Shown here piece after piece: positions 28,361 to 37,601 of a stretch of DNA of 64,000 nt; the first letter of the stretch is position 1; each line of letters begins with the position of its first letter. Source of the DNA: Leuconostoc suionicum (lineage in GTDB: Bacteria; Bacillota; Bacilli; Lactobacillales; Lactobacillaceae). The stretch lies in assembly GCF_001891125.1 (NCBI RefSeq), contig NZ_CP015247.1, positions 700,501 through 764,500 of the forward strand. The letters are read 5' to 3'. The position numbers were made by a program, and so were the translations under genes. The notes beneath the pieces are model-generated. The model was not told the origin of the DNA, ran no database searches, and saw only the letters and a program-made list of their open reading frames with translations.

Positions 28361-28439
28361 TTATCAAAATCGGCAATTGTGCCGGACTGGTTCGGAAAAT
28401 CCCAGAATAAAAAACCAAATGTGATGAGTATTTTGATAA
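28361..28439. repeat. 10-bp inverted repeat bracketing the preQ1-type aptamer
   Basis: TTATCAAAAT (28361-28370) and ATTTTGATAA (28430-28439) are exact reverse complements. Between them lie a small hairpin (CGGC 28371-28374 with GCCG 28381-28384) and the riboswitch core. If transcribed from upstream, the arms would close a long outer helix. Confidence 0.6.
28386..28418 (+). promoter_or_regulatory. preQ1-I type riboswitch
   Basis: Stem CTGG (28387-28390) with CCAG (28402-28405), loop TTCGGAAAATC, then the A-rich tail AATAAAAAACCAA (28406-28418). The layout GGTTC...CCC...ATAAAAAACTA is the hallmark of the class I preQ1 aptamer. The tail normally reads ACTA and pairs with TAG in the loop; here ACCA faces GG in TTCGG, a compensating change that keeps the pseudoknot. 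The 5' stem is one pair shorter than in the best-known examples. The aptamer lies 55 bases before the nucleoside hydrolase start. No clear terminator follows, so translational control is likely. Confidence 0.75.
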
Positions 28440-28472
28440 TATGATTCGCATGTGAACGAAAGGAAAGATGAA

Positions 28473-29459
28473 ATGCAAAAAGTTATTATCGACACAGATC
28501 CTGGAATAGATGATAGTTTAGCACTTCTTGTTGCGCTAAATTCTCCAGAATTAGATGTTATTGGAATCACTATCGTAGAAGGAAATGTGCCTACTGAAAT
28601 AGGTGTGCAGAATGCCCTTAAAGTTCTTGAAGAGGCTGGGAAACCTGATATTCCTGTTTTTGAAGGTGCTTCCTTGCCATTGAAACATGAATATATTAGT
28701 GCTCAGGATACGCACGGCTTAGATGGACTTGGCGAAAGCAACATCTCTTCGCCTAAAATTTCTGTGAGTGACCTTAAGGCTTCATCAGCCTATGAAAAGT
28801 TGCTTTCAGATAATGAGGATGTTTGGGTCTTGGCGCTCGGGCCGTTGACTAATATTGCTTTGGCAATGGAAAGAACACCTAAAGTATGGGGAAACATGTC
28901 TCGCCTAATTATCATGGGCGGTGCTTATCAATCCAATGGTAATACATCCCCAGTGGCCGAATATAATTTCTGGGTTGATCCAGATGCAGCAGAATATGTT
29001 TTGCAAAACAGCCCTGTTGTAGCTGAAATTGTACCGCTTGATGTAACGAGAAAAATATTGTTAACACCAAATATTTTATCGTTAATGCAACGTTTAAATC
29101 CTGACAAAACAATGTTTATTAACAAAATAATTCAATTTTATTTTGATTTTCACTGGTCACAGGAACACGTTCTGGGTGCAGTCATCAATGATCCGCTGGT
29201 CATAATCCATGCACTTTACCCTGAATACACCAGTGGCATAAGTAAATATGTCACAGTAGTCACAGAAGGTAAAGCATTGGGACAAAGCATTGTGGATATA
29301 GCTAATTTTTGGAAAAAAGAGGCTAACGCAGTTATTCTAACGGAAGTTGATTCGTTGCATGTCATGGCAGAAATAATAGCTCGCTTATTGAATTTATCCT
29401 CATCAAATGTATTAACAGAATTAACTACTATTGCCACAGACCTTGAGGTGTTATCATGA
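28473..29459 (+). CDS. Nucleoside hydrolase, possible queuosine hydrolase
   Basis: Inosine-uridine hydrolase superfamily enzyme that cleaves an N-glycosidic bond. The 328 residues carry the calcium-binding IIDTDPGIDDSLAL (about 4-17), GPLTNIALA, MGGAY, EYNFWVDPDAA and a late NDPLVI. The start is ATG 28473 after AAAGGAAAG; an upstream in-frame GTG at 28452 has no ribosome site. The substrate is not settled by the sequence. The preQ1-type riboswitch in front and the overlapping ECF S-component suggest release of queuine from queuosine, as described for the nucleosidase of the C. difficile queuosine salvage pathway. A general purine or pyrimidine ribonucleoside hydrolase is the alternative. Confidence 0.85.
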   Translation: MQKVIIDTDPGIDDSLALLVALNSPELDVIGITIVEGNVPTEIGVQNALKVLEEAGKPDIPVFEGASLPLKHEYISAQDTHGLDGLGESNISSPKISVSDLKASSAYEKLLSDNEDVWVLALGPLTNIALAMERTPKVWGNMSRLIIMGGAYQSNGNTSPVAEYNFWVDPDAAEYVLQNSPVVAEIVPLDVTRKILLTPNILSLMQRLNPDKTMFINKIIQFYFDFHWSQEHVLGAVINDPLVIIHALYPEYTSGISKYVTVVTEGKALGQSIVDIANFWKKEANAVILTEVDSLHVMAEIIARLLNLSSSNVLTELTTIATDLEVLS

Positions 29460-30004
29460 GAAAAATTTCCACTCAACGAATAACACTTATTGCGCTATTT
29501 ATTGTTATCAACATTATTGGCGGGCACGTTGCTTTGTTAGCAAAATTACCAGTTTATTTAGATACAATCGGTACATTATTAGGTGCGGCATTTTTTGGAC
29601 CAATTGGCGGCCTAATAGTGGGCGTTTTCACCGCATTAGTCAATGGGGTTACAGGGGATCTTTTTTCAATTTATTTTATGCCTAGTCAAATCGTGACTGC
29701 GCTGATGGCTGGTTTCGTATACAGAAAAATAAGTGCTACTGATGTGAAGAATATTTGGTGGTCAGCAGCTATTATATCTGTCCCAGCTACTATTGTGAGC
29801 TCAATTATCACGGTTATTTTGTTTCATGGCATTACTTCTTCTGGATCAAGTACAATCGTTCAAGTACTTCATGGATTGGGTTTGAATCAAACCCTTTCTG
29901 TCTTCTTAGTACAGGTTGGTACTGACTATCTTGACCGTATAATTGGTGTGTATGTGGTGGCGGCAGTGTATAGTATTATTGTTAATCGTATTAATATAAA
30001 ATAG
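29456..30004 (+). CDS. ECF transporter S-component, possible queuosine/queuine uptake
   Basis: Membrane substrate-binding subunit of an energy-coupling-factor vitamin transporter. The 182 residues have five to six hydrophobic segments and the S-component hallmark LGAAFFGPIGGLIVGVFTALVNG. GAGGTG precedes the ATG, which overlaps the hydrolase stop (ATGA). It would use a shared EcfA/EcfA'/EcfT module; none is adjacent, and the thiamine-type module at 34-37 kb is dedicated to YkoE. The riboswitch and hydrolase partner suggest a QrtT- or QueT-like role (inference). RibU- or FolT-like proteins share the fold. Confidence 0.8.
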   Translation: MRKISTQRITLIALFIVINIIGGHVALLAKLPVYLDTIGTLLGAAFFGPIGGLIVGVFTALVNGVTGDLFSIYFMPSQIVTALMAGFVYRKISATDVKNIWWSAAIISVPATIVSSIITVILFHGITSSGSSTIVQVLHGLGLNQTLSVFLVQVGTDYLDRIIGVYVVAAVYSIIVNRINIK

Positions 30005-30022
30005 TTCATATACTTTTCGATA

Positions 30023-30137
30023 TATTGGCCTGAATATGCCGTCTAAAACTATTCCGAGCGTTCACGGCAGATCGGCCCGATAACAACAAACTGATGAGCA
30101 CGTTGCCGTTTCGGTGTTCGAAAAACAAACGGAGGGC
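30023..30137 (+). promoter_or_regulatory. Structured, switch-like leader before the PnuC-type gene
   Basis: Unrecognised element with mutually exclusive pairings. ACGGCA (30064-30069) can pair with TGCCGT at 30037-30042 or with TGCCGT at 30104-30109. The second site overlaps CCGTTT (30106-30111), which pairs with AAACGG (30127-30132) at the edge of the Shine-Dalgarno GGAGGG (30131-30136). An outer GGCC/GGCC helix (30027-30030, 30074-30077) encloses the first hairpin. The stretch is more GC-rich than its surroundings and holds no reading frame. Confidence 0.6.
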
Positions 30138-30145
30138 ATTTTATT

Positions 30146-30859
30146 ATGCTGACTTTAATGCAAAAACTTAACCGATCAAGGATTGTTGACATCGTTGGAA
30201 TTTTGATAGTTATTTTTATGGCTTATAGTTCGGGGTATTTGTTTAATAATTTGACTAACATAGAGATGTTTGCACATGATAATTGGGCGAAGTATGTTCC
30301 TTTTGGTATTATTTCTGTTGTATCATCAAGTTTATCAATAATATCAACTCGTTTAACATCTCGTCTGAATAAATTTGGTAATGTTGTTGGTACAATCAAT
30401 ACATTGATTTCCGGAACAATTGATTTTATGTTAGGGAACAGTGGAGCAATTTTAACTTATCCGCTTTCGTTTCTTATCAACGCGGCTTCTGTTGGTGGCT
30501 GGATGCATTATGGTGATAAGCGGGTTAATCGCGTGATCGATTTCAAAAAGTTATTTTTTGTTATGGTCCTTGGTGTAATAGCTTTGAGTTTTGGACTGAA
30601 TTATTTAGCATTTCAAAGCACAAGCCCACTGTTTTGGCTATCAAGTACAGTTTTTGCTTTATCTTTAATTCCCAATGTTATGAATATTTTTAAAATTGAA
30701 GATCAATGGTTGTTCTGGATAGTCTACAATGTTGTCCAATTAGCTAAAGCCTTGACGCAAGGAAACTTTGCTAATGTTGGTAAATATTTATATTATATTG
30801 CTAATAGTAGTGTTGCATATCCAGTGTGGCGTGCAAAGCGTCAAAATAATAAATTATAG
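30146..30859 (+). CDS. PnuC-family nucleoside-type transporter
   Basis: Facilitated-diffusion transporter of the PnuC/SWEET-like fold; 237 residues with seven to eight hydrophobic segments. The C-terminal block EDQWLFWIVYNVVQLAK followed by YPVWRAKR matches the W-x-x-W/N signature of PnuC proteins. The family moves nicotinamide riboside (PnuC), thiamine (PnuT), riboflavin (PnuX) or deoxynucleosides (PnuN); the substrate cannot be read here. GGAGGG precedes the ATG. Its position behind a nucleoside hydrolase and its own switch-like leader suggest a nucleoside or its base. It ends at a terminator. Confidence 0.82.
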   Translation: MLTLMQKLNRSRIVDIVGILIVIFMAYSSGYLFNNLTNIEMFAHDNWAKYVPFGIISVVSSSLSIISTRLTSRLNKFGNVVGTINTLISGTIDFMLGNSGAILTYPLSFLINAASVGGWMHYGDKRVNRVIDFKKLFFVMVLGVIALSFGLNYLAFQSTSPLFWLSSTVFALSLIPNVMNIFKIEDQWLFWIVYNVVQLAKALTQGNFANVGKYLYYIANSSVAYPVWRAKRQNNKL

Positions 30860-37354: not shown

Positions 37355-37496
37355 GAAAAATTGTGGTCATAATCTCAATGAAGAAACGATACTTAACAAA
37401 CTTGTATTATTTCATCATCACATATTATAGTGATGACGTCACAAAACATAGTACTGTCAAAATATGTCATTTCATTAATACATTTTCAAGTAAATC

Positions 37497-37563
37497 TCCC
37501 TACGCTAGTATTATCTAGATCAGGTATAATGGGTTTTATCTCAGCGCGGCGGCACCCCAGATT
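37497..37563 (-). promoter_or_regulatory. TPP (thi-box) riboswitch
   Basis: Read on the minus strand the element runs CTGGGGTGCC, then GCTGAGAT, ACCC, ACCTGATCTAG, TAAT and GCGTAGGG. These are the conserved blocks of the thiamine diphosphate aptamer in order. It lies about 300 bases before ykoE. When TPP is bound it is expected to shut off the uptake operon. Confidence 0.95.
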
Positions 37564-37601
37564 TTGGTGTTTTCAGTTATTTGTGAAAAGCTCACGCATA
37601 G

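Follow-up and report, generated by a model that had tools for sequence, protein, structure and literature searches.

The pnuC-family gene in the window, i.e., the 64,000-nucleotide stretch of Leuconostoc suionicum DNA analyzed here, raises the question of which kind of RNA precedes it and what that RNA might sense. An earlier note had described the leader as a single switch-like element, in which the segment ACGGCA would pair with one of two TGCCGT partners and thereby mask or free the ribosome site; a divergent NAD+-II (pnuC-motif) element and a new class were both proposed there. From the comparison of related leaders, we consider it likely that the leader consists of two diverged NAD+-II aptamers in tandem, denoted elements A and B, and that it regulates pnuC. 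The class itself is known; new are the tandem, the shortened loop of B, the shifted pseudoknot and the rebuilt site 2 in Leuconostoc and Weissella. NAD+-II elements in lactic acid bacteria besides Streptococcus were unreported in the literature searched, which included few subscription journals.

Materials and Methods

The covariance model R1 rests on 14 canonical sequences from outside Leuconostoc; the full Streptococcus parasanguinis row of its alignment was joined from strands printed in PMC10085692. A second model, R2, was restricted to short-loop copies. The regions preceding PnuC homologues were extracted from 16 genera and from genome contigs. Ligand sites were compared in 12 variant copies (five of B and seven of A), and the base numbering follows PMC10085692.

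The pnuC Locus

The features of the locus are listed in Table 1.

Table 1. Features of the pnuC leader and its surroundings (positions in the window)
Feature	Positions	Strand	Basis or remark
Nucleoside hydrolase	28452-29459		upstream of pnuC
ECF S-component	29456-30004		upstream of pnuC
Leader (intergenic) of pnuC	30005-30145	+	between ECF S-component stop (30004) and pnuC start (30146)
Element A, putative diverged NAD+-II aptamer	30055-30093	+	R1 (filters off), A copies in relatives
A P1, CGAGC/GCCCG	30055-30059/30075-30079	+	4/5 pairs, one A-C mismatch
A loop GUUCACGGCAGAUCG	30060-30074	+	
A A-strand, AACAA	30082-30086	+	AAAAA in L006
A C46 equivalent	30087	+	then AAACUG
A possible pseudoknot, CAG:CUG	30068-30070 with 30091-30093	+	proposal only
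Element B, putative diverged short-loop NAD+-II aptamer	30096-30135	+	R1 match, conservation, P1 covariation
B P1, GAGCAC/GUGUUC	30096-30101/30114-30119	+	6/6 pairs
B loop GUUGCCGUUUCG	30102-30113	+	12 nt
B A-strand, AAAAA	30121-30125	+	five A
B C46 equivalent	30126	+	then tail AAACGGAGG
B pseudoknot, 5' strand CCGUU	30106-30110	+	pairs with AACGG 30128-30132
B pseudoknot, 3' strand AACGG	30128-30132	+	overlaps Shine-Dalgarno; pairs with CCGUU 30106-30110
Shine-Dalgarno of pnuC, GGAGG	30131-30135	+	sequence; start codon 30146
pnuC-family gene, likely nicotinamide riboside importer	30146-30859	+	237 aa; PF04973, TIGR01528, clade
PreQ1-I-like riboswitch	28381-28424	+	RF00522 34.0 bits, gathering 39, E 1.1e-5
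TPP riboswitch	37480-37569	-	69.7 bits, exceeds gathering score (Rfam)

The window PnuC matches PF04973 with 64.1 bits (Pfam), and its TIGR01528 score of 32.6 bits is below the NCBIfam cut-off of 42.45; phmmer found no relatives of it in PDB. It shares 80% identity with the PnuC of L. litchii. Three lineages of the PnuC tree have NAD+-II leaders, namely the window type, a Lactobacillaceae type of 242-276 aa and a Streptococcus type. The clade of the window protein is supported and includes homologues with canonical leaders in Limosilactobacillus, Ligilactobacillus, Apilactobacillus, Fructilactobacillus and Bombilactobacillus; no element was visible upstream of its Gemella, Veillonella and Rothia members. 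Despite the sub-cut-off NCBIfam score, membership in a clade with canonical NAD+-II leaders supports nicotinamide riboside as the substrate, and the leader suggests a substrate for a transporter below the curated PnuC cut-off.

We assigned the leader to pnuC because, in most other Leuconostoc species, pnuC lies away from the hydrolase-ECF pair. A promoter-like match (10/12) at 29916-29943 is a consensus match only, with 1.1 expected in shuffles.

The Proposed Three-Way Pairing

The repeats reported in the earlier note are correct in all letters and coordinates: ACGGCA at 30064-30069, TGCCGT at 30037 and 30104, CCGTTT at 30106, and AAACGG at 30127, which adjoins the Shine-Dalgarno as claimed. 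It should be noted that, when the leader was shuffled with its dinucleotides preserved, 124 of 5000 sequences (~2.5%) contained such a triple of a 6-mer and exact partners on both sides, and that the whole leader is not more stable than its shuffles (z = -0.22). The triple by itself is only mildly unusual and, given this shuffle rate and the ordinary stability, weak evidence alone.

The idea that ACGGCA alternates between the TGCCGT copies at 30037 and 30104, possibly as a new riboswitch class, draws on the exact complementarity and on the ligand-free ensemble of the window leader, in which both pairings are present (probabilities of ~0.86 and ~0.13). Comparison with relatives speaks against it. 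The upstream TGCCGT is TGCCTT in L. litchii, cutting the pairing to 4 pairs, and L006 has no complementary 6-mer in the upstream part. In L006, the A-loop ACGGCA is replaced by ACAACA and faces an unchanged B-loop UGCCGU, so the downstream pairing is broken as well; the whole arrangement is absent from leaders of single-element relatives. The second TGCCGT of the window sits inside the conserved loop GUUGCCGUNNCG. The three-way switch is largely refuted, and we regard it as most unlikely. The hairpin sequestering A is the favored ligand-free fold in the window (pair probability ~0.86), whereas the A-loop:B-loop pairing is favored instead in L. litchii; either fold could be the ligand-free state of this pair of leaders. 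Minimum-energy folding is not decisive here because it ignores pseudoknots and ligand.

Thus, a switch-like leader with a helix reaching the Shine-Dalgarno stood up to the comparison with homologous leaders, whereas the three-helix logic did not: both ACGGCA pairings lack conservation, and only CCGUUU:AAACGG covaries. This third helix corresponds to the pseudoknot of B, and its covariation is described below. The signal that exceeds chance, as judged from recurrence in related leaders, is the CCGUU:AACGG pairing together with its surrounding motif.

Model Searches

The Rfam search recommended in the earlier note gave nothing for the leader, either at gathering or at E ≤ 10, for any family. This outcome is uninformative for NAD+-II because the class is missing from Rfam 15; a Streptococcus NAD+-II copy, used as a positive control, was not recognised either. 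The same search bears on a riboswitch of the preQ1-I type (RF00522), which shares with this leader a small H-type pseudoknot and an A-rich tail contacting the stem; moreover, a preQ1-I-like element lies 1.7 kb upstream (28381-28424). However, the PreQ1 model had no match at E ≤ 10 in 29850-30250, yet it found that neighbor at 34 bits, and pnuC is not beside the neighbor's operon in most Leuconostoc. We give this assignment practically no weight.

Over the 64-kb window, R1 ranked B first (15.9 bits, E 0.045), and A was second in the leader when the filters were off (4.7 bits), compared to 26-66 bits for canonical copies on this model. In 36 kb of sequence from seven relatives, predicted A or B copies made up the top six R1 matches. 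Orthologues of B reached E-values of 1.2e-4 (L. litchii) and 2.5e-4 (L006), and copies of A scored 23.7, 17.0 and 15.0 bits in L003, L004 and L006, respectively. R2 found many canonical copies and also the A elements of G136 (31.0 bits) and G016 (25.6 bits), both upstream of pnuC; the G016 match rests on position and not on score, because three other R2 matches had 24-26 bits and no pnuC-like gene behind them. These three (in G049, G113 and G224) look like chance and represent the noise level of R2. A hammerhead core was also considered, since CUGAUGAG at 30091 is similar to it; Rfam gave no such match, and the segment consists of the tail of A and the start of B P1.

R1 matches were found in 65 of 398 Lactobacillaceae genomes, spanning 19 genera. 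The order-wide sample added 17 genomes of one further genus, presumably Streptococcus, as it carries the published form, and the class-wide sample of 101 genomes yielded only one, already among those 17. Upstream of orthologous PnuCs, a compact motif is conserved across Lactobacillaceae (P1, GUUGCNUCCG, an optional hairpin, ACG, P1', and AAAAA-CAA-N-AGGAG), and it matches the published S. parasanguinis NAD+-II sequence; these canonical elements are single copies with a UCC:GGA pseudoknot. Of the canonical elements in Lactobacillaceae, 32 were inspected, and 31 of them lie before an ORF of 242-276 aa that falls in the PnuC tree (three were Pfam-checked). For the canonical set (53 distinct sequences), there were 66 double-changed cells in P1 versus 18.9 in shuffles, and the covariation score was 0.585 versus 0.12 in shuffles, slid controls being at most 0.10. 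No covariation support for P1 or the pseudoknot was available in PMC7749635; the Lactobacillaceae copies supply it for P1 and widen NAD+-II to ~19 further genera.

The remaining element (G394) stands before an ECF S-component operon. In this contig (L134, 6952-9994), as in L182/L183, a canonical NAD+-II element lies directly before an ECF S-component of ~200 aa, with 73% identity between the Lactobacillaceae and Streptococcus copies; the protein is CD3073-like, below cut-off. In G394, it is followed by EcfT and two EcfA-like genes. This S-component may be the "hypothetical" gene of PMC7749635, and its position behind NAD+-II points to ECF import of a nicotinamide compound.

Conservation of Elements A and B

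The tandem of the window recurs in L. litchii and in G112 (L006). The single-element view of the earlier note overlooked one of two aptamers. Only A is present in L003 and L004, where its tail continues into the Shine-Dalgarno, and only B in L. citreum (L007); the tandem of Weissella minor (L062) is built on quite different stems, CUUGC/GCAAG and GACAG/CUGUC. Leuconostoc and W. minor harbor the variant, and one short-loop relative is present in Ligilactobacillus ruminis (L125).

Conserved copies of B, whose P1 covaries, occur in L. litchii, L006, L. citreum and W. minor; the window copy and the first three are nearly identical and show compensating P1 changes. In the B set (six sequences), both sides changed in 4/6 P1 pairs and 1/5 pseudoknot pairs, and 98.4% of cells are paired versus at most 47.6% in slid controls. 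The CCGUU:AACGG pseudoknot of the window is CCGUA:UGCGG in W. minor; this helix has one double change and two additional one-sided changes, and its covariation rests mainly on W. minor, since the set is small and related. For A, all five P1 pairs form in L. litchii (CGGGC/GCCCG) and W. minor, and the core differs by one base between the window and L. litchii while the upstream sequence diverges.

These data also bear on decay, i.e., a degenerating NAD+-II leader in which B perhaps works and A is a relic, or neither responds. The P1 mismatch and AACAA of the window A fit such decay, as do L. inhae and G054, with a single copy without P1 and C46, and L. palmae and G302, in which the element is lost. 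Conversely, the near identity of B in four leaders with compensating changes, the tandem recurring in W. minor, and the A core retained amid diverged upstream sequence speak against it; we consider decay decidedly unlikely. A decayed copy is retained in L005/L037, and no element was visible in the L008/L038 and L068 leaders.

Two further copies were seen. In W. minor (L062, 3872-3911), there is a weak, possible third upstream copy, GAAGC ... GCUUC UAAAAUAACAAAC (R1 5.9 bits, E 4.7). In L. ruminis (L125, 551-590; G205), a short-loop NAD+-II copy, GGAGG GUUGUCCAUUCG CCUCC CUAAAAACAAAGGAG, has a UCC:GGA pseudoknot and precedes a PnuC paralogue; it is possibly an intermediate between the canonical and the Leuconostoc B forms.

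Ligand Sites

The nicotinamide pocket (site 1) consists of G6, U7, C32, G33, C46 and A47 (PMC10085692). All 12 variant copies retain G6, U7, U8, C32, C46 and A47, and 11 retain G33, L004 being the only deviation; the site-1 set C5, G6, U7, C32, G33, G34, C46 and A47 is complete in both window copies. The canonical UCC:GGA pseudoknot and site 2 (G9, C10, U12, C13, C14 and G51-G54) are not found in the window copies, which are called variants for this reason: B keeps G9, C10 and G51-G54, lacks UCC and has the shifted CCGUU:AACGG pseudoknot instead, and A lacks G9 and C10. The second quadruple, U8:A50:A31:G15, is likewise not kept; U8 is present, C replaces A50, U stands at position 31 (A in the B copies of L006 and W. 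minor), and B has no clear G15. By sequence, then, site 1 is preserved and site 2 rebuilt. In the published gel assay, site-1 mutations were fatal and site-2 mutations were tolerated at room temperature; thus, an element without site 2 could still bind.

On the strength of the canonical-model match (for B), P1, site 1, the A5 strand, and the same-orientation position before pnuC, we class A and B as diverged members of the NAD+-II class. The divergent NAD+-II alternative of the earlier note is therefore upheld, and a new class is not needed. With S. parasanguinis NAD+-II (PMC7749635, PMC10085692), the window leader shares P1, the GUUGC start of the loop, C32-G33, the A5 strand, C46-A47, a loop-to-tail pseudoknot at the Shine-Dalgarno, and pnuC directly downstream. 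Unlike that element, it has two tandem copies and no P1a hairpin, its 12-nt B loop lacks UCCG and the pseudoknot has moved, and A has its own loop; site 2 and the second quadruple are not kept. The NAD+-I riboswitch (nadA motif) also has two similar tandem domains and is an NAD+-related OFF switch (as described in PMC7749635, PMC10085692); however, it has a different fold, occurs in Acidobacteria, and binds the adenosine half (PMC7749635).

The scaffold could have been kept and its ligand or use changed (nicotinamide riboside or NMN and not NAD+, or another pyridine nucleoside), forming a variant class. The rebuilt pseudoknot, second quadruple and site 2 would agree with this, and so would L. 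citreum, in which one PnuC paralogue (L128) follows a canonical element and the other (L007) the variant, so that its two elements may report different things. However, all nicotinamide-contacting bases of site 1 are kept, except G33 of L004, and orthologous PnuCs elsewhere have the canonical element; a changed ligand seems quite unlikely. Similarly, we find it doubtful that the leader represents a distinct tandem NAD+-II sub-class, with site 2 gone, the pseudoknot re-registered, and a changed ligand preference or cooperative sensing unlike Streptococcus. The role of site 2 is openly debated (PMC10085692), and the Leuconostoc/Weissella tandem, which keeps site 1 without site 2, is a natural experiment on it.

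Proposed Mechanism

The most likely function of the tandem NAD+-II pair is control of nicotinamide riboside import by an OFF switch at the level of translation, which would sense NAD+/NMN; the earlier note had also read the leader as an OFF switch for an importer, and the overlap of the pseudoknot with the Shine-Dalgarno is consistent with this direction. When NAD+, NMN or nicotinamide riboside is plentiful, the nicotinamide ring would dock at the retained site 1, i.e., the G33:C46 pair stacked on the G6:U7:A47:C32 quadruple, with the A-strand in the minor groove of P1. CCGUU of the B loop would then pair with AACGG, and this pairing would occlude the first part of the Shine-Dalgarno and reduce translation of pnuC; with scarce ligand, the pseudoknot would open and the importer would be produced. 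Copy A probably has the same ligand and may steepen the response, either by releasing the B loop from pairings that compete or through stacking on B; its own proposed pseudoknot cannot reach the Shine-Dalgarno in the tandem arrangement. Weighing against the tandem NAD+-II assignment are the low canonical-model scores, the missing G15 and A50 together with U at position 31, the mismatch, AACAA and tentative pseudoknot of A, the sub-cut-off PnuC score, and the small number of variant sequences.

Neighboring Riboswitches

The preQ1-I-like element upstream precedes the hydrolase and ECF operon (28452-30004) and is conserved there in other Leuconostoc and further Lactobacillaceae. QueK (a nucleoside hydrolase) and QrtT (ECF, PF12822) are known parts of queuosine salvage (PMC11130926), and the operon looks like one for queuosine/queuine salvage. 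On the reverse strand, the window also contains the TPP riboswitch listed in Table 1.
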